A stretch of DNA of 64,000 nucleotides from Brevundimonas pondensis (GTDB lineage: Bacteria; Pseudomonadota; Alphaproteobacteria; Caulobacterales; Caulobacteraceae), in assembly GCF_017487345.1 (NCBI RefSeq), contig NZ_CP062006.1, positions 3,152,501 through 3,216,500 on the forward strand, in the 5' to 3' direction. Shown here one piece after another: positions 721-16,100 of the stretch. Numbering within the stretch: the stretch's first letter is position 1; each line of letters opens with the position of its first letter. The position numbers were made by a program, and so were the translations under genes. The notes under the pieces are model-generated. The model saw only the letters and a list, made by a program, of their open reading frames with translations, did not search any database and had not been told where the DNA came from.

Positions 721-749
721 TTGCATCGCAATATGAGGCCGGGCATAAA
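721..749 (+). promoter_or_regulatory. Candidate promoter of the ilv-leu operon
   Basis: TTGCAT (721-726) is separated by 17 nt from CATAAA (744-749). Read as the Caulobacter housekeeping consensus it is TTGCATC, 15 nt, GCATAAAG. Transcription would start near 756, just upstream of the leader-peptide ribosome binding site. This is seen as sequence similarity only. Confidence 0.4.
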
Positions 750-773
750 GGCCGCCAGTTGAAAGGTTCTTCC

Positions 774-914
774 GTGCCCCACCGCGCCGCCATTGCTGCG
801 ATCCTGAGCCCCGCGAAAGCGGCGGCCGATCTGCGCGTGCTGTCGCTGGGCGTACTCCTTCTTTCGGTAATTCTTATTCCGCTTAGCCGAGCGGTGTGGA
901 TGCCTGCGACCTGA
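774..914 (+). CDS. ilvL: ilv operon leader peptide (attenuation peptide), 46 aa
   Basis: This short GTG-started frame has a Shine-Dalgarno sequence (AAAGG, 762-766) 7 nt upstream. Thirteen of the 18 residues between positions 20 and 37 are Leu, Val or Ile (core VLLLSVILIPL). The run uses codons such as CTT, ATT and GTA, which are less usual than the CTG, ATC and GTC that dominate neighbouring genes. It ends at TGA 912-914, 27 nt before the stem of a rho-independent terminator upstream of ilvD. This is the standard layout of transcription attenuation in branched-chain operons: ribosomes pausing for charged Leu, Val or Ile tRNA would favour an antiterminator. The composition and position are seen directly; regulation is inferred. 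A leader of this kind is known for the Caulobacter ilvBN operon. Confidence 0.85.
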   Translation: MPHRAAIAAILSPAKAAADLRVLSLGVLLLSVILIPLSRAVWMPAT

Positions 915-971
915 CCTAACCCAGTCAAAATCGCCCGCTTCACCCCGCTCCCTCCCGGCAGCGGGGTTTTT
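889..971 (+). promoter_or_regulatory. Attenuator: antiterminator and terminator stems upstream of ilvD
   Basis: The terminator stem is ACCCCGCT (942-949) with AGCGGGGT (960-967), a 10-nt loop and TTTTT ending at 971. The 5' arm can instead pair with 889-898, in 9 of 10 positions (GAGCGGTGTG with CACCCCGCTC at 941-950). That gives a competing antiterminator placed directly after the Leu/Val/Ile codons. Bases 891-896 can also pair with CACCGC at 780-785 in the start of the leader, a possible protector stem. These pairings were read by eye; folding energies were not computed. Confidence 0.8.
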
Positions 972-1018
972 CATGTGCCCAATACAGAGCCGATAGGCAG
1001 AACCTTCCAAAAAAACCG

Positions 1019-2758
1019 ATGACCAACTCGCCTGACAGCAAAAAACGACCCAACGCACGCAGTTCGGCCGTCACCCAGGGGCCGAACCGGGCCGCGGCGC
1101 GGTCCTATCTGCGCGCGGCGGGCATGCAGGACGCCGACTTCGACAAGCCGATGATCGCCATCGTCAACACCTGGTCGACGGTCACGCCGTGCAACATGCA
1201 CCTGGACCGTCTGGCCAAGGACGTGCGCGCCGGCATCATCGCGGCGGGCGGCTATCCGGTCGACTTCAACACCATCGTCGTCACCGACGGCATCTCCATG
1301 GGCACGGCGGGCATGAAGGCCTCGCTGATCAGCCGCGAGGTCGTCGCCGACTCCATCGAGCTGGCGGTCGAGGGGCATCAGCTGGACGGCGTCGTCTGCA
1401 TCGTCGGCTGCGACAAGACCATCCCGGCGGCGGCCATGGCCCTGGCCCGGATGGATATCCCCGGCCTGGTCTATTACGGCGGGACCATCCTGCCCGGCCG
1501 CATCGGCGAGAAGGAGGTCTCGGTCCAAGAGGTGTTCGAGGCCATCGGCGCCCACGGCGCGGGCGCCCTGTCGGACGAGGGCCTTAAAGCTGTCGAGAGC
1601 GCGGTCTGCCCTGGCGCCGGCGCCTGTGGCGGCCAGTTCACCGCCAACACCATGGCGATGGCCCTGTCGATGATGGGCATCAGCCCCATGGGCGCCAACG
1701 ACGTCCCCGCCGTCGATCCCGGCAAGGGCGCGGAAGGGCAGCGTTGCGGTCGTCTGATCGTCGAACGCGTTTTCGCCGGCGACACCGCCCGCAAATACAT
1801 CACCAGGGCCAGCCTGAAGAACGCCGCCGTCGCCGTCTCGGCCTCGGGCGGCTCGACCAACGCCGTCATGCACCTGACCGCCATCGCCGCCGAGGCCGGC
1901 GTCGACTTCGGCATCGAGGACTGCCACCAGGCCTGCGTCGAGGCCCCGGTCATCTGCGACCTGAAGCCCGGCGGCCGCTTCCTGGCCTCCCACCTGTTCG
2001 CGGCGGGCGGCACGCGCCTGGTCGCCCAGCGACTGGCCGAGGCCGGCAAGATCGTCAACACGCCGACCGTCACCGGCCGCAGCCTGTTCACCGAGGCCGC
2101 CGAAGCCGAGGAGACCCCGGGCCAGAAGGTCGTCACCAGCATGGACGCCCCCGTCATGGCGCGCGGCTCCTACGCCGTCATCTATGGCGACGTCGCTCCC
2201 GAAGGCGCCGTCATCAAGTTGACCGGCCACAAGGTCGACCGCTTTGAAGGCCCCGCCGCCGTCTTCGACTGCGAGGAGGACGCCTTCCACGCGGTTCAGG
2301 ACGGCTCGGTCGGCGAAGGCGACGTCATCATCATCCGCTACGAAGGCCCCAAGGGCGGTCCTGGCATGCGCGAGATGCTGCAGGTCACCGCCGCCCTGAA
2401 GGGCCGCAAGGTCGAGAACGTCGCCCTGCTGACCGACGGTCGCTTCTCGGGCGCCTCCTACGGCTTCGTCGCCGGCCACGTCTCGCCCGAAGCGGCGGCG
2501 GGCGGCCCGATTGCACTCATTCGCGATGGCGATCCGATCGTCATCGACGTCACCAACCGAAGGATCGATGTGCTCGTCGATCTGGAGGCGCGCCGGGCGG
2601 ACTTCGCCCCCAACCGGGTCCGTCCGGCGCAAGGCGTTTTCGCGAAATACCGCGCCGCCGTCGCCTCCGCCTCGCAAGGGGCCGTGACCATCCCCAATCC
2701 GCCGCCGGCCCAAACGGCCGAAACCTATTCCAACGCCGCCATCTCTGAGGACGCCTGA
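1019..2758 (+). CDS. ilvD: Dihydroxy-acid dehydratase
   Basis: IlvD dehydrates 2,3-dihydroxyisovalerate and its methylvalerate homologue to the 2-oxo acids, the third common step to Val and Ile (Leu via Val). The 579 aa length is normal for the IlvD/Edd family. Likely Fe-S cysteines are visible at C58 (TPCN), C131 (GCDKT) and in the GACGGQFTANTM segment near residue 203. The start is the first ATG after the attenuator. No strong Shine-Dalgarno precedes it, which is unusual for the first enzyme gene of an operon. It is separated from ilvC by 3 nt. Confidence 0.96.
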   Translation: MTNSPDSKKRPNARSSAVTQGPNRAAARSYLRAAGMQDADFDKPMIAIVNTWSTVTPCNMHLDRLAKDVRAGIIAAGGYPVDFNTIVVTDGISMGTAGMKASLISREVVADSIELAVEGHQLDGVVCIVGCDKTIPAAAMALARMDIPGLVYYGGTILPGRIGEKEVSVQEVFEAIGAHGAGALSDEGLKAVESAVCPGAGACGGQFTANTMAMALSMMGISPMGANDVPAVDPGKGAEGQRCGRLIVERVFAGDTARKYITRASLKNAAVAVSASGGSTNAVMHLTAIAAEAGVDFGIEDCHQACVEAPVICDLKPGGRFLASHLFAAGGTRLVAQRLAEAGKIVNTPTVTGRSLFTEAAEAEETPGQKVVTSMDAPVMARGSYAVIYGDVAPEGAVIKLTGHKVDRFEGPAAVFDCEEDAFHAVQDGSVGEGDVIIIRYEGPKGGPGMREMLQVTAALKGRKVENVALLTDGRFSGASYGFVAGHVSPEAAAGGPIALIRDGDPIVIDVTNRRIDVLVDLEARRADFAPNRVRPAQGVFAKYRAAVASASQGAVTIPNPPPAQTAETYSNAAISEDA

Positions 2759-2761
2759 CCC

Positions 2762-3775
2762 ATGGCCATCACCATCTACACCAACGACGACATCAAGCCG
2801 GGTGCCATCGCCGGCCAGCGCATCGCCGTCATCGGCTATGGCTCGCAGGGCCGCGCCCACGCCCAGAACCTGAAGGACTCGGGCCATGACGTCGTCGTCG
2901 GCGTTCGCCAGGGCGGCACGGGCTGGAAGCATGCGACGGCCGACGGCGTCCCCACCGCCGAGCCGGCCGAGGCCGTTCGCGGCGCCGACATCATCGCCAT
3001 CCTGACCCCGGACATGATCCAGAACGAGGTCTATCGGGACATCATCGAGCCCAACGCCAAGCCGGGCGCCGCCCTGCTGTTCGCCCACGGCTTCTCGATC
3101 ATCTACGACCGCATCACGCCGCGCGACGACATGGACGTCATCCTGGTCGCGCCCAAGGGTCCGGGCGATCTGGTCCGTCGCGAGTTCGCGCGCGGTCGCG
3201 GCGTCCCCAGCCTGTTCGCCATCGAGAAGGACGCGACCGGCAAGGCGCGCGACCGCGCCATGGGCTACGCCAAGGGCATCGGCGGCGCGACCGGCGGTCT
3301 GCTGGAAACCAGCTTCCGCGAAGAGACCGAGACCGACCTGTTCGGCGAACAGGCCGTCCTGTGCGGCGGCGCCAAGGAGCTGGTCATCTCGGGCTTCAAC
3401 ACCCTGGTCGAGGCCGGCTACCAGCCCGAGATCGCCTACTTCGAATGCCTGCACGAGCTGAAGCTGATCGTGGACCTCTTCTACGAGGGCGGCATCTCCA
3501 AGATGCACCACTTCATCTCGGAAACGGCCAAGTGGGGCGCCGTCGCCTCGGGCCCGCGCGTCATCACCGACGAGACCCGCGCCCGCATGAAGGAGGTCCT
3601 GACCGAGATCCAGGACGGCACCTTCGCGAGGAACTGGATCGCCGAGAACGAGGCCGGCAAGCCGCAGTACCAGGCCTGGCTAGACGCCGATCGCCAATCC
3701 CACATCGAGCAGACGGGCGCCCGCCTGCGCGAGCGCATGGCCTGGCTGCAGACCCCCAAGTCTGAAGCCGCCTGA
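2762..3775 (+). CDS. ilvC: Ketol-acid reductoisomerase (NADP+), class I
   Basis: IlvC isomerises and reduces acetolactate or acetohydroxybutyrate. The 337 aa length matches the short class I enzymes. The N-terminal Rossmann motif [13 protein letters not shown] lies near residues 26-38, followed by a cofactor loop ([11 protein letters not shown]). The C-terminal knotted domain carries the acidic metal-binding segments ([10 protein letters not shown] and the [13 protein letters not shown] helix). It starts 3 nt after ilvD, so the two are probably coupled. A 30-nt gap with an unusual AT repeat (atatatata) separates it from ilvB. Confidence 0.97.
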
Positions 3776-3805
3776 CCCGCATATATATAAAGAGAGACTG
3801 ACCCG

Positions 3806-5524
3806 ATGAGCGCCGCCGCGCCCGCCCTGAAAACCGCCTCCGCCCCGGCGACCGTGAACGACACGGCCACCGGCGCGCGCCTGCTCGTCTCCAGCCTGGA
3901 GCGGATGGGCGTGGAGGTGGTCTTCGGCTACCCCGGCGGCGCCATCATGCCCATCTACGACGCCCTGACCGGCACGGGCCTGAAGCACATCCTGGTCCGT
4001 CACGAACAGGGCGCGGCCTTCGCCGCCGACGCCTATGCCCGCGCCTCGGGCAAGGTCGGCGTCTGCATGGCCACCTCCGGCCCCGGCGCCACCAACCTGA
4101 TCACCGGCATCGCCAACGCCATGATGGATTCGGTGCCGATGGTCTGCATCACCGGCAACGTTCCACAAGGCGTCATGGGCACCGACGCCTTCCAGGAGAT
4201 CGACATCCTGGGCGTCACCCTGCCGATCGTGAAACACTCTATATTAGTGCGCGACGCGTCGGAGATCCCGGCCGCCGTCGAACAGGCCTTTCACATCGCC
4301 GCCTCGGGCCGCCCCGGACCGGTCCTGGTCGACCTGCCCAAAGACGTCCAGTTCGCCACGGCGGCCGCCCCGTTCGGCTTCAACATCCCCAATGAAGCCA
4401 GCGACGTCGATCACGACGCCATAGCCGAGGCCGAACGCTTCATCCGCGCCGCCGAACGCCCGCTGATCTACGTGGGCGGCGGGGTGAAGATCGGTCGCGC
4501 GACCGAGGCCGTCCGCGCCTTCGCCGAGGCCACCGGCATCCCCACCGTCTCGACCCTGAACGCCCTGGGCACGGTCGCCACCGACGCCCCCGGCTATCTG
4601 GGCATGCTGGGCATGCACGGCACGCGCGCCGCCAACGAGGCGGTCCAGGCGTCCGACCTGCTGATCGTCCTGGGCGCCCGCTTCGACGACCGCGCCACCG
4701 GCAAGCTGGCCGAGTTCGCGCCCCACGCCCGCGTCGTCCACTTCGACATCGACGCCTCCGAGATCGGCAAGCTGCGCGAGACCCATGTCGCAGTCGCCGG
4801 CGAGCTAAAGCCCGGCGTCGAGGCCCTGACCGCTCGCATGGCCGCTGCGCCTCTGGCCATCGATCCCTGGGTCATCCGCTGCGCCTCGGCCGCCGCCCAT
4901 CACGCCGCCCGCTATGACGCGCCGGGCGAAGGCGTCTATGCGCCCGCCCTGCTGAAGCAGTTGTCCGAGATGGCGGGCGACCGCTTCGTCGCCGCCTGCG
5001 ACGTCGGCCAGCATCAGATGTGGGCCGCCCAGCACTGCCGCTTCTCCAAGCCCGAAGCCCACATCACCTCGGGCGGTCTGGGGGCCATGGGCTTCGGCCT
5101 GCCCGCCGGTCTGGGCGCCAAGCTGGCCGATCCGTCGGCCACGGTCGTCACCATCGCCGGCGACGGCGGCTTCATGATGAACATTCAGGAGCTGGCGACC
5201 CTGAAGCGCTACGGCGTCGCCCTGAAGATCGTTCTGCTGGACAACTCGTCGCTGGGCCTGGTGCGCCAGTGGCAGGAGCTGTTCTTCGAGGAGAACTATT
5301 CCGAGGTCGATCTGTCCGACAATCCGGACTTCGTGAAGGTGGCCGAGGCCTTCGGCGTCGAGGCCTTCCGCATCGCGCAACGCGATCAGGTCGAGGCCGG
5401 CATCGCCCGCCTGCTGGCGGCCGACGGCCCCTGCCTGGCCCACGTCGTCATCAACCCCAAAGAGAATGTCTGGCCTCTGGTTCCGCCGGGCAAGAGCAAC
5501 GCTGAAATGATGGAAGGCGCATAA
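3806..5524 (+). CDS. ilvB: Acetolactate synthase large (catalytic) subunit
   Basis: This ThDP- and FAD-dependent subunit condenses pyruvate with pyruvate or 2-oxobutyrate. It is 572 aa. It has the N-terminal pyrimidine-binding domain with the catalytic-glutamate region (RHEQGAAFAADAYAR), a central domain, and the C-terminal ThDP/Mg motif GDGGFMMNIQELATL. A purine-rich stretch (aaagagaga) 11-19 nt upstream can serve as ribosome binding site. Codons 146-147 are ATA TTA (4241-4246), both conspicuous in this GC-rich coding sequence and both for branched-chain residues. It is followed one base later by ilvN. Confidence 0.97.
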   Translation: MSAAAPALKTASAPATVNDTATGARLLVSSLERMGVEVVFGYPGGAIMPIYDALTGTGLKHILVRHEQGAAFAADAYARASGKVGVCMATSGPGATNLITGIANAMMDSVPMVCITGNVPQGVMGTDAFQEIDILGVTLPIVKHSILVRDASEIPAAVEQAFHIAASGRPGPVLVDLPKDVQFATAAAPFGFNIPNEASDVDHDAIAEAERFIRAAERPLIYVGGGVKIGRATEAVRAFAEATGIPTVSTLNALGTVATDAPGYLGMLGMHGTRAANEAVQASDLLIVLGARFDDRATGKLAEFAPHARVVHFDIDASEIGKLRETHVAVAGELKPGVEALTARMAAAPLAIDPWVIRCASAAAHHAARYDAPGEGVYAPALLKQLSEMAGDRFVAACDVGQHQMWAAQHCRFSKPEAHITSGGLGAMGFGLPAGLGAKLADPSATVVTIAGDGGFMMNIQELATLKRYGVALKIVLLDNSSLGLVRQWQELFFEENYSEVDLSDNPDFVKVAEAFGVEAFRIAQRDQVEAGIARLLAADGPCLAHVVINPKENVWPLVPPGKSNAEMMEGA

Positions 5525-5525
5525 C

Positions 5526-5777
5526 ATGAGCGACACCATTCACATCCAGATCGACCGGGCCGACGGCTCGCTTCAGCGTCTCATCGGCCTGGTGGAACGC
5601 CGCGGCTTCCACATCGACGGCATGAGCATGGCCGACGAGGGGCCTTCGCGCCGCATCGCCCTGACCGTGCGCGGCCGCGACGCCGCGCGCTCCATCGACA
5701 ACCTGGGCTGCCAGATCGATCGCCTGTTCGGCGTTTCGCGCATCAAGGCCCCCGCCTTCCAGTCCGAGGCCGCGTAA
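5526..5777 (+). CDS. ilvN: Acetolactate synthase small subunit, short single-ACT form
   Basis: At 83 aa this is a single ACT domain (IHIQIDRADGSLQRLIGLVERRGFHI is split here for length: start IHIQIDRADGSLQ, then LVERRGFHIDGMSM). It resembles enteric IlvM (87 aa) more than the roughly 160-190 aa IlvH-type subunits common in alphaproteobacteria. The small subunit activates the catalytic subunit and in long forms mediates valine inhibition; short IlvM-type enzymes are known to be poorly valine sensitive. Its stop overlaps the leuA start by one base (TAATG). The name ilvM would be equally defensible. Confidence 0.9.
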   Translation: MSDTIHIQIDRADGSLQRLIGLVERRGFHIDGMSMADEGPSRRIALTVRGRDAARSIDNLGCQIDRLFGVSRIKAPAFQSEAA

Positions 5778-7045
5778 TGTCCCGAGTAGAACGAGTATCC
5801 AGAACCGCAGAAATCGCGGCGTCCGATCCCAACCGCGTCATCATCTTCGACACCACCCTGCGCGACGGCGAACAGGCGCCCGGCTTCTCCATGTCGGCCG
5901 AGTCCAAGCTGAAGATGGCCCATGTCCTGCGCGACCTGGGCGTGGACGTGATCGAGGCCGGCTTCGCCGCCGCCTCGCCGGGCGACGAGGAGTGCATCCG
6001 CCGCGTGGCGGGCGAGATCGAGGGTCCGGTCTTCGCCTCGCTGTCGCGCGCCAACGAGAAGGACATCGACGCCTCGTTCCGGGCCCTGTCGCCCGCGCCG
6101 AAGTCGCACCGCCGCTGCCACGTCTTCCTGGCCACCAGCCCGATCCATCGCTCGGCCAAGCTGCGGATGAGCACCAACGAGGTTCTGGCCACGATCTCGC
6201 GCACGGTGGAATACGCCGCCTCGATGTTCGACGACGTCGAGTTCTCGGCCGAGGACGCCTTCCGCACCGAGCCGGAGTTCCTGGCCGAGGCCCTGATGGC
6301 CGCCGCCGACGCCGGCGCCCAGACCCTGAACGTGCCCGACACTGTCGGCTACGCCACGCCCGAAGAAGCGCGCCAACGCTTCGCCTATCTGGACGGGATC
6401 ATCCGCCCGCGGCACGCCGACATCATCTTCTCGTCGCACGCGCACAACGACCTGGGTCTGGCCGTGGCCAACTCCCTGGCCGCCGTCGAGGGCGGTGCGC
6501 GTCAGATCGAGGGCGCGATCAACGGCATCGGCGAACGGGCCGGCAACGCCTCCATCGAGGAGATCATCATGGCCCTTCGCACTCGCGCGGACCGCTATGG
6601 CGTCAGCGTATCGGCCGAGAGCCGCCACCTGGTGCGGGCCTCGCAGACCCTGCGCGACGTGACCGAGACGGTCATCGCCCGCAACAAGGCCATCGTCGGC
6701 CTGAACGCCTTCGCCCACGAGGCCGGGATCCACCAGCACGGCATGATGGCCGACGCCCGCACCTACGAGATCATGCGTCCCGAGGACGTCGGTTTCGAGG
6801 GCAGCTACTTCGTGCTGGGCAAGCATTCCGGCCGCCACGCGGTCGGCAAGCGGGCCGAGGCCCTGGGTCACGTGCTGGAAGGCCAGCGCCTGGCCGACGT
6901 CTTCGCCGGCTTCAAGCAACGCGCCGACCAGATCGGCGAAATCAATGACGCGGAGCTGACCGCCATCATCACGGCTGTGACGGCCAAAACCCTGAATGGG
7001 GGCGCCTCCGCACAAATGGACAAGACCTATGCAACCGCTGGCTAA
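5777..7045 (+). CDS. leuA: 2-isopropylmalate synthase lacking the C-terminal regulatory domain
   Basis: LeuA condenses acetyl-CoA with 2-oxoisovalerate, the first committed step to leucine. The TIM-barrel domain is clear: DTTLRDGEQAPG near residues 25-36, VEFSAEDAFRTEP, the metal-binding HAHNDLG, and the GAINGIGERAGN segment. The connecting subdomain follows (HEAGIHQHG, LGKHSGRHA). The protein ends at residue 422, right after INDAELTAII, where typical LeuA (about 510-560 aa) continues into the leucine-binding dimer domain. There is no room for a lost domain: ilvE begins 17 nt before the leuA stop. Leucine feedback is therefore probably absent; a related synthase specificity cannot be excluded. 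Confidence 0.9.
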   Translation: MSRVERVSRTAEIAASDPNRVIIFDTTLRDGEQAPGFSMSAESKLKMAHVLRDLGVDVIEAGFAAASPGDEECIRRVAGEIEGPVFASLSRANEKDIDASFRALSPAPKSHRRCHVFLATSPIHRSAKLRMSTNEVLATISRTVEYAASMFDDVEFSAEDAFRTEPEFLAEALMAAADAGAQTLNVPDTVGYATPEEARQRFAYLDGIIRPRHADIIFSSHAHNDLGLAVANSLAAVEGGARQIEGAINGIGERAGNASIEEIIMALRTRADRYGVSVSAESRHLVRASQTLRDVTETVIARNKAIVGLNAFAHEAGIHQHGMMADARTYEIMRPEDVGFEGSYFVLGKHSGRHAVGKRAEALGHVLEGQRLADVFAGFKQRADQIGEINDAELTAIITAVTAKTLNGGASAQMDKTYATAG

Positions 7046-7997
7046 GAATATCTGGATCAACGGCGAACTGACGCCCTGGGCCGACGCGAAAATCCACGTC
7101 ATGAGCCACGCCCTGCACTACGGCACCTCGGTGTTCGAGGGTATCCGCGTCTATGACACCCCGAACGGCCCATGCGGCTTCCGCCTGACCGACCACGTGC
7201 GCCGCCTGTTCGACAGCGCGCGCATCTATCACTTCCCCCTGCCCTTCACCGAGGACGAGCTGGTCCAGGCCTGCAAGGACGTGGTCCGTTCCGAGGGCCT
7301 GCGTTCGGCCTACCTGCGCCCCCTGGCCTTCCTGGGCGAGTGCGGCATGGGCGTGTCCCCGAGCCCGGAGAACATCCGCACCGACGTCATGATCTCGGCC
7401 TTCCCCTGGGGCGCCTATCTGGGCGAGGAAGCCCTGGAAAAGGGCGTCGACGCCTGCATCTCCAGCTGGAACCGCGTCGCCCCCAACACCATCCCGGCGG
7501 GCGCCAAGGCGGGCGGCAACTATCTGTCCGGCTATCTGATCGGGCGTGAAGCCCGCGTCGGCGGCTTCGGCGAAGGCATCGCCCTGGGCGTCGACGGCCG
7601 CCTGTCGGAAGGCGCCGGCGAGAACCTGTTTGTGGTCAAGGACGGGGTGCTGATGACCCCGCCCGCCGCCGCCTCCATCCTGCAGGGCATCACCCGCGAC
7701 AGCGTCATGAAGCTGGCGCGCGGTCTGGGCTATGAGGCCCGCGAGCAGATCCTGCCGCGCGAAGCCCTCTACGTCGCCGACGAGGTCTTCATGACCGGCA
7801 CCGCCGCCGAGATCACCCCAGTCCGCTCCATCGACGGCATCGCCACCCGCTCCAACGGCCCCGGCCCGATCACCAAGGCGGTCAACAAGGCCTTCCGCGG
7901 CCTGTTCGACGGCACGACGCCCGACCGTTTCGGCTGGCTGGAGCCCATCGGCGAGGCGACGACCGCCCCCAAGGAGCGCGTGCATGAGCCAGCCTAG
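7029..7997 (+). CDS. ilvE: Branched-chain amino-acid aminotransferase
   Basis: This fold-type IV PLP enzyme makes the final transamination to Val, Leu and Ile. The protein is 322 aa with the chosen start. [14 protein letters not shown] contains the expected catalytic lysine, and [14 protein letters not shown] ([10 protein letters not shown]) and [15 protein letters not shown] are hallmark segments. I chose ATG 7029 because homologues begin about at [10 protein letters not shown]; an in-frame ATG at 6996 would add 11 unlikely residues. It overlaps leuA by 17 nt and leuC by 14 nt, which suggests translational coupling. Confidence 0.95.
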
Positions 7998-9432
7998 GAC
8001 CCTGTACGAAAAGGTCTGGGACCGGCACGTCGTCGTGCCGGAAACGGCCGAGACGCCGGGCGTTATGTATGTGGACCTGCACCTGGTCCACGAAGTCACC
8101 TCGCCCCAGGCCTTTTCCGAAATCGAGGCGCGCGGACTGAAGGTCCGCCGCCCCGACCGCACCTTCGCCACCCTCGACCACTCGACCCCCACCCTGCCCG
8201 CCGGGCCGGACGGCCAGCGCCCCTATGTCACCGGCCAGGCCCGCAAGCAGGTCGAGACCTTGGAGGCCAAGTGCGCCCGTCACGGCATCGAGCTGGCCGG
8301 TTGGGGTTCGGACCAGCGCGGCGTGGTTCACGTCATGGGCCCTGAGCTGGGCCTGACCCAACCGGGCATGACCGTGGTCTGCGGCGACAGCCATACCGCC
8401 ACCCACGGAGCGTTCGGCGCCCTGGCCTTCGGCATCGGCACCTCCGAGGTCGGCCACGTCCTGGCCACCCAGTGCCTGTTGCAGCGCCGCGCCAGGTCCA
8501 TGCGCGTGACCGTCGACGGGCGCCTGCGTCCCGGTGTGTCCGGGAAAGATGTTGCTCTGGCCGTCATCGCCGCCATCGGCTTCGGCGGCGGCACCGGCTA
8601 CGTCATCGAATATGCCGGCGAGGCCGTGCGTTCGCTGGACATGGAAGGGCGCATGACCCTGTGCAACATGTCCATCGAGGCGGGCGCCCGCGCGGGCATG
8701 ATCGCCCCGGATCAGACGACCATCGACTGGCTGCGCGGCCGCAAGCACGTCCCCGCCGACTATGAGGCCGTCGCCGCCGACTGGCTGAGCCTGGCCTCCG
8801 ACCCCGGCGCGACCTTCGACAAGGAAGTCGCACTGGACGGCGCCGCCATCCGCCCCATGGCCACCTGGGGCACCACGCCGGATGCCGGCGCTCCCGTCGG
8901 CGCCCCCGTGCCGCAGCCGCGCTCGGACTCGGACCGCAAGGCCATCGACTACATGGGCTTCACCGCCGGCGAAGCGACGACGGGCCACAAGGTCGACGTC
9001 GTCTTCATCGGCAGTTGCACCAATGGCCGCCTGCCCGACCTGCGCGCCGCCGCCGACGTCCTGCGCGGCCGCAAGGTCCAGCCGGGTGTGCGCATGCTGG
9101 TCGTGCCCGGCTCCGAGGCCGTGCGTCGCGACGCCGAGGCCGAAGGTCTGGACAAGGTCTTCATCGAGGCCGGCGCCGAATGGCGCATCCCCGGCTGCTC
9201 CATGTGCATCGCCATGAACGGCGATTTCGTCGCCCCCGGCCAGTTGGCGGTCTCGACCTCCAACCGCAATTTCGAAGGCCGTCAGGGCAAGGGCGCCCGC
9301 ACCATCCTGGCCAGCCCGGCGACCGCCGCGGCCAGCGCCGTCGCCGGGGTCCTGACCGACCCACGCGCCTATCTGGAGGCCGCCCTCCTCATGCAGCCGA
9401 GCGCCGTGCGCGCGGCGGTAGGAGCAGAATAA
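7984..9432 (+). CDS. leuC: 3-isopropylmalate dehydratase large subunit
   Basis: LeuC with LeuD isomerises 2- to 3-isopropylmalate. The 482 aa length and aconitase-family motifs fit: [14 protein letters not shown], and cluster ligands in GSCTNGR (near residue 345) and [10 protein letters not shown] (near residues 405-408). The start ATG lies inside the end of ilvE, and its TAA overlaps the leuD ATG (TAATG). Confidence 0.97.
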
Positions 9433-10022
9433 TGTCTGATGCATTCAAGGTTCTGACGTCGAAAACCCTGACCCTGAGCCAGGCCAATATCGACACCGAT
9501 CAGATCATCCCGGCCCGCTTCCTGACCACCACCACGCGCGAGGGTCTGGGTGCCCACGCCTTCCATGACTGGCGCTACGAAGCCGACGGATCGGCCAAGC
9601 CCGAGGCGGTGCTGAACCGCATCGACTCGACTGAACAGCGCATCCTGCTGGCCGGGCCCAACTTCGCCTGCGGTTCGTCGCGCGAACACGCCCCCTGGGC
9701 CCTGCTGGACTATGGCTTCCGGGCGGTGATCTCGACCGAGATCGCCGACATCTTCACCTCCAACGCCCTGAAGAACGGCCTGCTGCCCATCGTCGTCGAC
9801 CAGGCTGTCTGGGACGATCTGGCGGCCCACCCCGAACAGCCCGTCACCATCGACCTGGAAGCCGGCGAGATTCGCCGCGGCAACGTCGCCCCCGTCCCGT
9901 TCAAGGTCGAGGCCTTCGCCCGCCAATGCCTGCTCGACGGCGTCGACACCCTCGGCTGGCTGCAATCCAAGCTGCCCTACATCCAGACCTTTGAGCGCTT
10001 CCGTGAACCGGAGACTACCTGA
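9432..10022 (+). CDS. leuD: 3-isopropylmalate dehydratase small subunit
   Basis: This 196 aa swivel-domain partner of LeuC contains NIDTDQIIPARFL near the N terminus and the FACGSSREHAPWAL substrate-loop motif. The true start is the ATG overlapping the leuC stop by one base; a longer in-frame extension upstream is only the leuC shadow. Its TGA overlaps the leuB start by one base. Confidence 0.97.
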   Translation: MSDAFKVLTSKTLTLSQANIDTDQIIPARFLTTTTREGLGAHAFHDWRYEADGSAKPEAVLNRIDSTEQRILLAGPNFACGSSREHAPWALLDYGFRAVISTEIADIFTSNALKNGLLPIVVDQAVWDDLAAHPEQPVTIDLEAGEIRRGNVAPVPFKVEAFARQCLLDGVDTLGWLQSKLPYIQTFERFREPETT

Positions 10023-11122
10023 TGCCCCACACCCGCACCTTCAACATCGTGGTCCTGCCCGGCGACGGCGTCGGGCCTGAGGTCGCTCTGGCCGCACAGC
10101 GCGTCCTGAATAGCATTGGCGACATCTACGGCCACAGGTTCGAGTTCACCGAGCACCTGATCGGCGGCGCCGCCATCGACGCGACCGGCGAAGCCCTGCC
10201 CGAGGACACCAAGGCGGCCTGCCTGGCCGCCGACGCCGTTCTGCTGGGCGCGGTCGGCGGTCCCAAGTGGGACGGCTCGCCGGTTCGGCCCGAACAGGGG
10301 CTGCTGGCCATCCGCAAGGCCATGGGCCTGTACGCCAACCTGCGCCCGCTGCAGGTCTCGCCGGTCCTGGCGCACCGCTCGCCGCTGAAGAAGGAGATCG
10401 TCGAGGGCGTCGATCTGATCGTTTTTCGCGAACTGACCAGCGGCGTCTATTTCGGCGAGAAGACCCGTACCGCAACCAGCGCCTCGGACCTGTGCGTCTA
10501 TACGGTCGAGGAGATCGAGCGTATCGCCCGCGCCGCCTTCCAGGCCGCCCAGCAGCGCCGCGGCAAGGTCACGTCGGTCGACAAGGCCAATGTCATGGAA
10601 ACCAGCCGCCTGTGGCGCGAGGTCGTGACCCGCATCCACGCCGAGGAATATCCGCAGATCACCCTGGAGCACGCCCTGGTCGATTCCATGGCCATGCACC
10701 TGATCCGCAAGCCGCGCGACTATGACGTCATCCTGACCGAGAACATGTTCGGCGACATCCTGTCGGACGAGATCTCGGTGCTGGGCGGCTCCATCGGCCT
10801 GCTGCCCTCGGCCTCGCTGGGCGCGGATGGCCCCGGCCTGTTCGAGCCGATCCACGGCTCGGCGCCCGACATCGCCGGTCAGGACCTGGCCAACCCGGTC
10901 GGCATGGTGCTGTCGGCCGCCATGATGCTGCGTCACAGCTTCGATCTGGAAGACGAAGCCAACTCGATCGAGGCCGCCGTCGCCGCCGTCCTGGCCTCGG
11001 GCGCCGTCACCGCTGATCTGGGCGGAGCCCTGGGCACGGTCGAGGCCACGCGCGCCATCGTCGACGCCATTCGCGCCATCCACTGGGCCGCCGCCCGTCA
11101 CGTGCCGATGCACTGGGCCTGA
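10022..11122 (+). CDS. leuB: 3-isopropylmalate dehydrogenase
   Basis: LeuB is NAD-dependent and oxidises and decarboxylates 3-isopropylmalate to 2-oxoisocaproate. It is 366 aa, with LPGDGVGPEV at the N terminus, GAVGGPKWDG, the substrate/metal segment TENMFGDILSDE, and the cofactor region PIHGSAPDIAGQ. It is the last gene of the operon and is followed by a strong terminator 30 nt downstream. Confidence 0.97.
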   Translation: MPHTRTFNIVVLPGDGVGPEVALAAQRVLNSIGDIYGHRFEFTEHLIGGAAIDATGEALPEDTKAACLAADAVLLGAVGGPKWDGSPVRPEQGLLAIRKAMGLYANLRPLQVSPVLAHRSPLKKEIVEGVDLIVFRELTSGVYFGEKTRTATSASDLCVYTVEEIERIARAAFQAAQQRRGKVTSVDKANVMETSRLWREVVTRIHAEEYPQITLEHALVDSMAMHLIRKPRDYDVILTENMFGDILSDEISVLGGSIGLLPSASLGADGPGLFEPIHGSAPDIAGQDLANPVGMVLSAAMMLRHSFDLEDEANSIEAAVAAVLASGAVTADLGGALGTVEATRAIVDAIRAIHWAAARHVPMHWA

Positions 11123-11186: not shown

Positions 11187-11795
11187 TCAGTTGTCGATCA
11201 GGCCCTGCAAGGCCGCCGACATCCGCCGCGCCAGCTCGGCCTTTTGCGTCTCGTCCAGCGACGCATAGCCGTCCGACAGCTCGCGCCCAATCGCCATCCC
11301 CATGATCAGGCCCGCCGCCAGACGCGCGCGCACGGGGGCGTCCGGCCCGCCGATCCAGGCGGCCAGAGGGTCGAAGAAGCGGTTGTTCGAGGTGCGCTGC
11401 ATCACGTCCATCGCCTTGGCCGAACCGACCGAGCGCAGCAGGATCAGCAGGCCGCGCATCTTGGCCCCGCCTCCGTCCGCCTCACAGGGCGTCAGGTCGC
11501 CGTAGACAATCTCGCGCGCCAGCCGATCGCCGAAATCCTCACGCGGGCCTTCCATCAGGTCGCGGCCGTTCTTGCAGCTGTCCAGGACGGCGACGAACAG
11601 ATCTTCCTTGGAGCCGAAGTAGCGGCTGATGAGGGCCGCATCCACGCCGACGTCGCGCGCAACGTCGCGCATTCCGACGTCGTCATAACTGTCGGAACAA
11701 AAACGCTCCCGCGCCGCTTCCAGAATAGCCTGGCGCGTGGCGTTCGCATTGCGTGGTCGGGGGGCGTCGCACAGGACCAAGTGGTCGTACTCCAA
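11187..11795 (-). CDS. TetR/AcrR family transcriptional regulator
   Basis: This 202 aa protein has an N-terminal TetR helix-turn-helix (residues about 17-63: ATRQAILEAARERF, then VGVDAALISRYFGSKEDLF) and a divergent C-terminal ligand domain. It is transcribed away from the RND efflux operon, so it is probably that operon's local repressor. It converges on leuB with the terminator between them. The ligand cannot be predicted from sequence. Confidence 0.93.
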   Translation of the reverse strand: MEYDHLVLCDAPRPRNANATRQAILEAARERFCSDSYDDVGMRDVARDVGVDAALISRYFGSKEDLFVAVLDSCKNGRDLMEGPREDFGDRLAREIVYGDLTPCEADGGGAKMRGLLILLRSVGSAKAMDVMQRTSNNRFFDPLAAWIGGPDAPVRARLAAGLIMGMAIGRELSDGYASLDETQKAELARRMSAALQGLIDN

Positions 11796-13152: not shown

Positions 13153-16100
13153 ATGAACATCTCCCGCTTCTTCATCGATCGGCCGATCTTCGCGGGCGTG
13201 ATCTCGGTGTTCATCACCCTGATCGGCCTGTTCGCCTATCCGATGCTGCCCCTGTCGCAGTATCCGGAGATCGCGCCGCCCACCATCACCATCAACGCCG
13301 CCTACCCCGGCGCCTCGGCCGAGACCCTGGCAGAGACCGTGGCGGCCCCCATCGAGCAAGAGGTCAACGGCGTCGAGAAGATGCTGTACCTGACCTCCTC
13401 GTCCACCTCGGACGGGGCCGTGGCGATCACGGTGACCTTCCAGCCCGGCACGGATCTCGATTCCGCCCAGGTGCTGGTGCAGAACCGCGTCGCCCTGGCT
13501 GAACCCAAACTGCCCGAGCAGGCCCGCCAGATCGGCGTGACGGTCAACAAGGCCGAAAGCGGCTTCCTGATGATCGTCGGCCTGACCTCGCCCGACGGCA
13601 GCCTGGATAACGACTACGTCGGCAACTACGCCAACTCGACGCTGCGCGACCGCCTCCTGCGGATCGACGGCGTGGGTCAGGTTCAGGTGTTCGGCGGCGG
13701 CAACTATTCGATGCGCGTCTGGATCGACCCGGCCAAGGCGGCCGAGCGCGGCCTGACGGGTCCCGACATCGTCGCCGCCCTGCGCGCCCAGAACGTCCAG
13801 GCCGCCGCCGGCTCCATCGGCCAGCCGCCCTTCGCCACCAACGCCGCCGCCTTCCAACTGCCGGTTCAGGTGCAGGGCCGTCTGTCCGACCCCGATCAGT
13901 TCGCCGACGTGGTCATCAAGACCGACGCCGAAGGCCGCGTGACCCGCGTCCGCGACATCGCCCGCGTCGAACTGGGCGCTCAGGATTACGGCATCCGCGG
14001 CTTCTTCGACGGCGAGCGCGGCGTTGGCGTGGCCATCGTCCAGCAGCCGGGGGCCAACGCGCTTGGCACCGCCAACCGCGTCCTGGCCGAAGTCGAGGCC
14101 GTCAAGGCCGAGCTGCCCGCCGGCATGGCCATCTCCATCCCCTACAACCCGACGGAATTCGTCGCCGCCTCGGTCGAGGCGGTGCAGCACACCGTGTTCG
14201 AAGCCGTCGTCCTGGTGGCCATCGTCGTCCTGATCTTCCTGCAGACCTGGCGCGCGGCCATCATCCCGATCATCGCCATCCCGGTGGCCCTGGTCGGCAC
14301 CTTCGCGGTGCAGCTGGCCCTGGGCTATTCGATCAACTCCCTGTCGCTGTTCGCCCTGGTTCTGGCCGTCGGCATCGTCGTCGACGACGCCATCATCGTG
14401 GTCGAGAACGTCGAGCGATACCTGCGAGAGGGACTGACACCCAAGGAGGCCGCCTACCGATCCATGCAGGAGGTTTCCGGCGCCCTGATCGCCATCGGTC
14501 TGGTGCTGACGGCGGTGTTCGTGCCGACCGCCTTCGTCCCCGGCATCCCCGGCATCTTCTATCGCCAGTTCGCCGTCACCATCGCCTCGGCGACGCTGAT
14601 CTCGCTGGTGGTGTCCCTGACCCTGTCTCCGGCTCTGGCGGCCCTGCTGCTCAAGCCGCACGTCCACCACGACAACGTCCGCAAGCCAGGCCTGTGGAAC
14701 GCGGTCACCTACTACGTCCGTTGGGCCGGCGATAAGTTCAACCAGGGCTTCGACTGGCTGTCGGACAAGTACGGCCGCCTGACCGCCCGTCTGGTGCGTT
14801 CGCTGATGATCGTCATGATCGTCTATGCGGGCCTGCTGGCCCTCACCGGCTGGCGCCTGGTGGACACGCCCTCGGGCTTCATCCCGGAACAGGATCAAGG
14901 CTTCCTGATCGGCGTCATCCAGCTCCCGGCCGGCGCTTCGCTGGAACGCACCGAGGCCGTGATGAAGCGCGCCGACGAGATCATCCAGAAGACCGAGGGT
15001 GTCGACGGCACCGTGGCCTTCGCCGGTCTTGACGGCTCCAGCTTCTCGTTCGGCTCCAACGCGGCGACCATCTTCGTGCGCCTCGACGCCTTCGAGAACC
15101 GCACCAAGGAACAGGCCGCCACCGCCCTGGCCGGCGCCATCACCGGCGCCACCGGCGGCATTGAGGAAGCCAACATCTTCGTCATCGCCCCCCCGGCCGT
15201 TCAGGGTCTGGGCAACGGCAACGGCTTCAAGATGATGATCCAGGACCGTTCCGGCGCGGGCTACCGCGCGCTGGAAGGCGCCACCTTCGCCATGATGGGC
15301 GGCGCGGCCCAGATGCCCGATCAGGTGCAGCAGGTCTTCTCGACCTACAACACCGGCTCGCCCCGCATCGCCGCCGACGTGGATCGCAACAAGGCCCTGA
15401 TGATGGGCGTGCAGCCGTCGGCGGTGTTCGACACCCTCGGCGTCTACCTCGGCTCGTCCTACATCAACGACTTCAACCTGCTGGGACGCACCTTCCGCGT
15501 CACCGCCCAGGCTGAACCGTCGGCCCGCGACGACATCGCCGACATCGCCAACCTGAAGACCCGCTCCGCCTCCGGCGCCATGGTGCCGATCGGCGCCGTC
15601 GCCAACCTGCGCGAGGACTCCGGTCCGGCCCGCGTCGTCCGCTACAACCTGTTCCCGGCTTCCGAGCTGCAGGGTCAGGCCGCGCCGGGCGTCTCGTCCG
15701 GCCAGGGCATCGCGGCGATGGAGCAGCTGGCTTCTCAGGCCCTGCCGCAAGGCTTCAGCTACGAGTGGACCGAACTGGCCCTGCAGGAGAAGCAGGCCTC
15801 GGGCGGCGCCTCGATGATCTTCATCATGGCCGTGGTCTTCGTCTTCCTCGTGCTGGCGGCGCAATATGAGGCCTTCACCCTGCCGCTCGCGGTGGTGCTG
15901 ATCGTCCCCATGTGTCTGCTGGCGGCCATGATCGGGGTGAACATCCGCGGTCTGGACAACAACATCCTGGTCCAGATCGGCCTCGTCGTCCTGATCGCGC
16001 TGGCGGCCAAGAACGCCATCCTGATCGTCGAGTTCGCCAAGCAGGCTGAAGAGGAAGAGGGCATGGATCGCTTCGAAGCGGCTGTTTACGCCGCCAAGGT

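Follow-up and report, generated by a model that had tools for sequence, protein, structure and literature searches.

In Escherichia coli, a leader peptide of mixed Ile, Val and Leu content, IlvL, precedes the operon of the AHAS II (IlvG) enzyme, ilvGMEDA, which is not known to include leu genes. The ilv-leu operon of Bacillus subtilis is a T-box operon and is not known to have a leader peptide. Among the alpha-proteobacteria, the attenuator of Caulobacter crescentus ilvBN was reportedly studied by Tarleton in 1994. It combines tandem Ile and Val codons with a terminator and, in the excerpted text of the source, governs ilvBN only (PMC4117421); the ilvB leader peptide of alpha-proteobacteria is credited to Vitreschak 2004 in an excerpt of another paper (PMC1273637). 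The ilvBNC operon of Corynebacterium glutamicum has CUU (Leu) and GUA (Val) as control codons and an overlapping terminator and antiterminator, like the locus described here, whereas its model, as excerpted, consists of three hairpins with an anti-antiterminator and concerns ilvBNC only (PMC11857589). In Staphylococcus aureus, Leu-dependent attenuation of the nine-gene ilvDBNC-leuABCD-ilvA operon is backed by mutants and reporters, and the same excerpt describes joint ilv and leu genes of B. subtilis under premature termination, there by a Leu-responsive T-box riboswitch (PMC5794164).

Here we describe the upstream region of an ilv-leu operon in a 64,000-nucleotide stretch (the window) of the single-contig, 3.55 Mb genome of Brevundimonas pondensis. 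It is very probable that this region is a ribosome-mediated (leader-peptide) transcription attenuator (Table 1). Since the leaders for branched-chain amino acids (BCAA) of E. coli, Caulobacter, C. glutamicum and S. aureus precede it, the switch is of a known kind, and what is new is a further example of a long-known type, in this genus; no publication on this leader stood among the titles listed from the open-licence literature on leader peptides and attenuation. With S. aureus the locus shares a BCAA superoperon starting with ilvD, a short leader rich in BCAA codons and a terminator before ilvD, but the S. aureus leader is an Ile/Leu peptide of 26 aa, its antiterminator pairs with the poly-U tail, and its operon, in a firmicute and with another gene order, is also controlled by CodY (PMC5794164, as excerpted). 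C. crescentus, likewise an alpha-proteobacterium, has tandem Ile/Val codons and a terminator in common with it (PMC4117421, excerpt), and E. coli the mixed leader before an IlvG operon, although the window leader has a GTG start and rarer codons. When this leader is aligned with IlvL (window, LRVLSLGVLLLSVILIP; E. coli, LRVISLVVISVVVIIIP), the score is reached by 1 of 2000 shuffles. Among eight other leaders of the genus (L and G numbers denote loci and genomes), the resemblance recurs in L037 (2 of 500 shuffles), is weak in L040 (6 of 500) and L067 (18 of 500), and is not seen in L018, L033, L047, L054 and L064, nor in two leaders of genus group g14.

Table 1. Features of the leader region and of the ilv-leu operon (positions in the window).
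Feature	Position	Strand	Remarks
Candidate promoter	721-749	+	TTGCAT, 17 nt, CATAAA; from sequence, missed by consensus scan
Leader ribosome-binding site	761-766	+	GAAAGG, 7 nt upstream of GTG; from sequence
Leader peptide frame	774-914	+	46 codons, GTG start at 774, TGA stop at 912-914; translation predicted
Control-codon block	831-884	+	18 codons, 13 of them for Leu/Val/Ile; rare ones for the most part
Antiterminator 5' arm (A)	889-898	+	within leader frame, at its end
Small hairpin with leader stop codon	906-934	+	906-909/931-934 and 912-915/924-927; nested in antiterminator; from MFE folds
Antiterminator 3' arm (D)	941-950	+	overlaps terminator 5' arm
Intrinsic terminator	943-971	+	7-bp stem, CCCCGCT (943-949)/AGCGGGG (960-966); T5 at 967-971
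ilvD, dihydroxy-acid dehydratase	1019-2758	+	NF002068 686.8 bits (cut-off 644); TIGR00110 574.5, below cut-off 618.15
ilvC, ketol-acid reductoisomerase	2762-3775	+	family-model match
Acetolactate synthase catalytic subunit, IlvG (AHAS II) type	3806-5524	+	NF006524 871.4 bits, cut-off 738
Small subunit, 83 aa, IlvM-sized	5526-5777	+	ACT_5; weak to small-subunit models, below cut-offs
leuA, 422 aa	5777-7045	+	without C-terminal LeuA_dimer; best matches are 2-isopropylmalate synthase models
ilvE, branched-chain aminotransferase	7029-7997	+	family-model match
leuC	7984-9432	+	family-model match
leuD	9432-10022	+	family-model match
leuB, last operon gene	10022-11122	+	family-model match
Convergent frame after leuB	11187-11795	-	TetR-like by eye, appearance only

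The initial annotation of this DNA had claimed a GTG frame of 46 codons with 13 branched-chain residues in 18 codons, and such a frame is present, with the predicted product VPHRAAIAAILSPAKAAADLRVLSLGVLLLSVILIPLSRAVWMPAT; when 621-1018 was shuffled 1000 times with dinucleotides preserved, the highest count of such residues was 11. The ribosome-binding site that it had called good exists, its quality being moderate. The terminator with its T-run and the antiterminator are found as claimed: a 7-bp Watson-Crick hairpin followed by T5 arises in 1 of 1000 shuffles of the same region, and arms A and D form 9 of 10 possible pairs. Because D and the terminator's 5' arm share bases, A:D pairing and the terminator are mutually exclusive. 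Generic searches speak against the claim: the whole leader RNA is only modestly more stable than its shuffles (z -1.94), a generic terminator scan stays at chance level (1 found, 1.3 expected) and a sigma-70 consensus scan finds nothing; the case rests on conservation.

In the proposed mechanism, RNA polymerase would start upstream of 774 and a ribosome would trail it along the leader frame. With charged tRNAs for Leu, Val and Ile in good supply, the ribosome would reach the stop codon and cover arm A, the terminator could fold, and transcription would stop near 971. A shortage of any one of them would make the ribosome lag in the control-codon block, within 831-880, and leave A free to pair with D, which would block the terminator, and polymerase would continue into ilvD-ilvC-ilvG-ilvM-leuA-ilvE-leuC-leuD-leuB. 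Translation of the leader is predicted, and its response to starvation for three amino acids is inferred from its codons. Premature termination before a joint ilv-leu operon would also be compatible with a T-box or another ligand-binding riboswitch, as the T-box control of the B. subtilis ilv-leu operon illustrates (PMC5794164, excerpted text), yet an Rfam search of the leader, T-box model included, returns no family at the gathering threshold, and the switching arm and the I/L/V frame share sequence. Relaxed to E up to 1, the search yields a single sRNA match at chance level (17.7 bits, where the gathering score is 49.5), and we regard a riboswitch as scarcely credible.

The IlvD of this operon is encoded in 69 of the 101 genomes of the genus sample, the window genome included. 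We compared 67 upstream regions, 30 from loci including the window and 37 taken by place; in G005 and G038 the contig starts inside ilvD. One region is masked (L065) and one partly masked (L009), which leaves 65 fully readable regions, the window and 64 relatives; in L009 the terminator and the last ten leader codons are visible despite the masking. The initial annotation had named the loss of leader frame or terminator in relatives as a finding that would speak against it. No such loss occurs: each of the 64 relatives that are readable in full retains the frame, the place of its stop and the terminator, and all 65 regions carry an I/L/V-rich frame that ends in ACC TGA and is followed by the terminator, with 30-36 nt between the stop and the CCCGC...GCGGG-T hairpin. 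The stops were located through the ACCTGA motif near the hairpin, and a frame finder free of this motif reaches identical stops. Leader starts among the relatives viewed are mostly GTG, also TTG or ATG, and GGGAG or AGGAG precedes the start in many of them. Four sets of close relatives were each compared internally, and in the I/L/V block codon position 3 accounts for 26 variable sites against 10 and 9 for the other positions (p 0.002). Conservation is poor in the N-terminal half of the leader, where variation mostly changes amino acids and the codon-position bias is missing in three of the four groups. In the family sample, searched with stricter filters, the covariance model R1 matches the ilv locus in 11 of 12 genus genomes with IlvG; the twelfth (G069) has a masked leader and a weak match elsewhere, and the model has no match in the 12 genomes of the genus for which no IlvG match is listed.

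The control codons are biased towards rare ones. From codon -22 to codon -9 before the stop, in the 58 distinct leaders, which are kin and thus give counts that are not independent, Val is encoded by GTA in 85 of 112 cases, Ile by ATT in 71 of 76 and Leu by CTC or CTT in 291 of 361, compared with 4 of 256, 6 of 184 and 12 of 223 in eight of the nine operon genes of the window, leuD being left out of this baseline. For the remaining residues of the block, Met and Trp excluded, the codon ends in C or G in 239 of 262 cases; the bias is therefore specific to the control codons, and simple AU-richness is ruled out as its cause. The choice of isoacceptor as the reason for the rare codons fits Val (tac) and Leu (gag), as the tRNA set of the genome includes Val-tac, Val-gac, Val-cac, Leu-gag, Leu-cag, Leu-tag and Leu-caa, in a list of 45 places (one without an ARAGORN gene) that contains no Ile tRNA and is thus incomplete. 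ATT and ATC are expected to be read by one tRNA, and isoacceptor choice would not account for the preference for ATT over ATC. Codon rarity alone does not imply sensitivity in theory, according to an excerpted treatment (PMC1183508).

In the same leaders, GTA occupies position -15 in 53 of 58, and CTT or CTC occupies position -10 in 58 of 58. It is therefore conceivable, at somewhat less than even chances, that the leader senses one or two amino acids, for example Val through GTA and Leu through CTT/CTC, with the other codons incidental; the operon would then be tuned to these, and overall BCAA supply would be set otherwise. Such a reading would agree with the conserved CUU and GUA control codons of C. 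glutamicum ilvBNC (PMC11857589, excerpt) and with the S. aureus ilv-leu attenuator, which in the excerpted account answers Leu despite its Ile codons (PMC5794164). Against it, the Ile codons are kept and biased as well, ATT standing at -18 in 39 of the 58 distinct leaders in addition to the 71 of 76 Ile codons given above.

The match between the arms exceeds what coding of the leader peptide requires in 38 of 41 distinct arm pairs. When the leader end was resampled synonymously 300 times, the A:D duplex had a median of -22.7 kcal/mol against -13.6 kcal/mol for the resamplings, and in these 38 pairs its strength was reached by at most 5% of them. In L064 and in L067/L069 the helix is rebuilt with different bases in A and matching bases in D. 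A weak test, the exchange of arms between leaders, leaves the own arms stronger than the mean of the swapped arms in 27 of 41 pairs; the window's own A:D (-19.9 against a swapped mean of -21.4) is not better, and likewise L053.

Dependence on the position of the ribosome appears when the RNA is cut before the 3' arm of the terminator, to represent the state in which this arm is yet to be made, and A:D is counted at a probability above 0.5. All 65 regions form A:D while the ribosome stands anywhere from codon -22 to codon -13; 64 do so at -12 and -11, 21 at -10 and none from -9 on, so that the loss of A:D coincides with the end of the I/L/V block. Once the RNA is complete and the ribosome has reached the stop codon, the terminator is favoured in all 65. 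At full-RNA equilibrium with the ribosome stalled at -18 to -13, 28-30 of the 65 regions switch, the window among them for stalls at -18 and -15, and the terminator is ahead in the other 35-37, where switching must therefore be kinetic. In RNAs free of ribosomes, 63 of 65 form A:D while the 3' arm is still missing, and the terminator leads at full length in 40 of 65; an untranslated leader may thus allow read-through in these models. The initial annotation had spoken of a classical attenuator, which is loose as a term, for no protector hairpin of the E. coli type, with its three-hairpin 1:2, 2:3, 3:4 version, is evident in the folds. It had also proposed folding with covariation as a check: the cut RNAs switch with the position of the ribosome, and formal covariation is modest. 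RNAalifold on an alignment of 54 sequences recovers the terminator and a local fold and does not find the A:D helix. On three of five covariation measures the observed value is reached by 2-9 of 500 shuffles, and on the other two, which tally pairs or types, by 359 and 443 of 500, in a count that uses one register only and breaks down in the window's own leader group.

As to the candidate promoter, GGTTGC and GGCATAA recur in 12 close relatives (L005-L008, L010-L017). In 40 of the 65 regions the leader is preceded by a covarying dyad, an arrangement found at 0.5% in base shuffles, as GCAA-N5-TTGC in 26 and GGAA-N5-TTCC in 14, with a mixed type in one locus. In 37 of these 40 regions a TTGyr -35-like box follows 8-9 nt downstream; the loci that bear the dyad include L018-L037 and L039-L043, L038 lacks it, and GTGGTGTTTTTTTCCAC at 686-702 is a possible weaker counterpart in the window. 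The dyad looks like a putative operator of a dimeric regulator and suggests a second control of the operon. On this basis one could suppose that the hairpin is a basal terminator, that a DNA-binding protein at the dyad exerts the main control at the promoter, and that the leader is a by-product. We consider this very unlikely, for it leaves the I/L/V block, the rare codons and the beyond-coding A:D match unexplained, and the dyad in its strict form is not found in 25 of 65 regions, the window included.

The operon that the leader would control was correctly recognized as one of nine genes. They lie on the forward strand at 1019-11122, no gap exceeds 30 nt and several genes overlap, a spacing from which a single transcript for all nine may be predicted. 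The names ilvB and ilvN given initially do not hold, as the synthase is of the IlvG type (over the NF006524 cut-off) and the small subunit is IlvM-sized. In the window genome no other locus exceeds the cut-off for acetolactate synthase. The E. coli enzyme of this type, AHAS II, is valine-insensitive. The matches of leuA cover the first ~385 model positions and stay just or well below the cut-offs. The regulatory domain LeuA_dimer (PF08502) is missing from the whole window genome by a search that was positive in 14 of 14 control genomes; it is present in 111 of 149 genomes of the family sample and missing from 10 of its 12 operon-bearing genus genomes, with G097 and G196 as the exceptions. A sole synthase of the IlvG type and the genome-wide lack of PF08502 suggest that enzyme feedback may be weak here and that attenuation may have a larger share in control. 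It is improbable that the attenuator is the main sensor of BCAA for the whole pathway, replacing enzyme feedback, with rare codons reading three amino acids and an untranslated leader leaving the operon on by default. Elsewhere, leuA is unmatched within the operon in L160 (G196), L154, L155, L157 and L158, and G196 has a 575-aa frame with LeuA_dimer outside the operon.

No match to the operon's IlvD was found in 32 of the 101 genus-sample genomes, three of which are under 90% complete. Acetolactate synthase over the curated cut-off is missing from 31 of these 32 and LeuB from 30, by a LeuB cut-off that only 9 of 14 control genomes pass; the 29 best LeuB matches below this cut-off have less than 25 bits and one genome has no match at all. 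About a third of the genus sample is therefore predicted to be auxotrophic for BCAA. In one of the 32 (G051) the rest of the operon is present and its upstream part is masked. In 22 of the 32 (L120, L122, L123 and 19 more places) there is a ketol-acid reductoisomerase 44-49% identical to that of the operon, and no other ilv or leu gene of the operon was matched near it in L120, L122 and L123. L120 also contains, at 13889-15481, a frame whose translation, judging by its motifs, resembles a reverse transcriptase fused to a trypsin-like protease part.

In the family sample, IlvG is matched at E up to 1e-150 in 80 of 149 genomes and 10 of 22 genera. Genus group g14 and one g21 genome carry an IlvG match of 62-68% identity within related operons (six g14 loci and one g21 contig were viewed), and the remaining matching genera carry an IlvB 45-48% identical to the window IlvG. 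In all six g14 loci an I/L/V leader of another type, ending in (R/S)P...EW, stands with a terminator before a truncated ilvD-like gene, then ilvC; the g21 contig starts inside ilvD, so that its leader region is off the contig. The truncated gene in g14 (L154-L158, L161) is a frame of 179-212 aa that matches only the C-terminal part of IlvD, and a full-length IlvD-like gene lies nearby on the opposite strand. Outside the family, the nearest matches, among 80 loci taken from a larger number, are IlvG-type loci of gammaproteobacteria and a single contig of Obscuribacter; an I/L/V-rich frame lies upstream in 16 of the 18 nearest (all except L192 and L209), hence such leaders accompany IlvG operons more widely.

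Matches of the R1 model outside the genus are of a different nature. Of 19 with loci (L173-L191), 17 were viewed, L176, L183 and the second G056, G097 and G216 matches lying outside this count, and by eye none of the 17 is an ilv leader; they are a look-alike leader, terminators and chance. The look-alike, with Met/Thr/Ile codons and a similar terminator, was seen by eye in L173-L175, L177-L182, L185, L186, L188 and L191. It belongs to other genera of the family, is followed by a protein of ~97 aa in several loci, and is possibly a separate Thr/Ile attenuator; four of the small downstream proteins were searched and none has a Pfam match.

The 65 readable leaders from one genus form a natural data set on multivalent attenuators, which bears on the retention of Leu, Val and Ile control codons, on the choice of rare codons and on an antiterminator arm within a coding frame. 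They add an IlvG-type ilv-leu operon that is missing from about a third of the sampled genus. If the pathway is truly without enzyme feedback, it would offer a test bed for attenuation alone balancing three end products.
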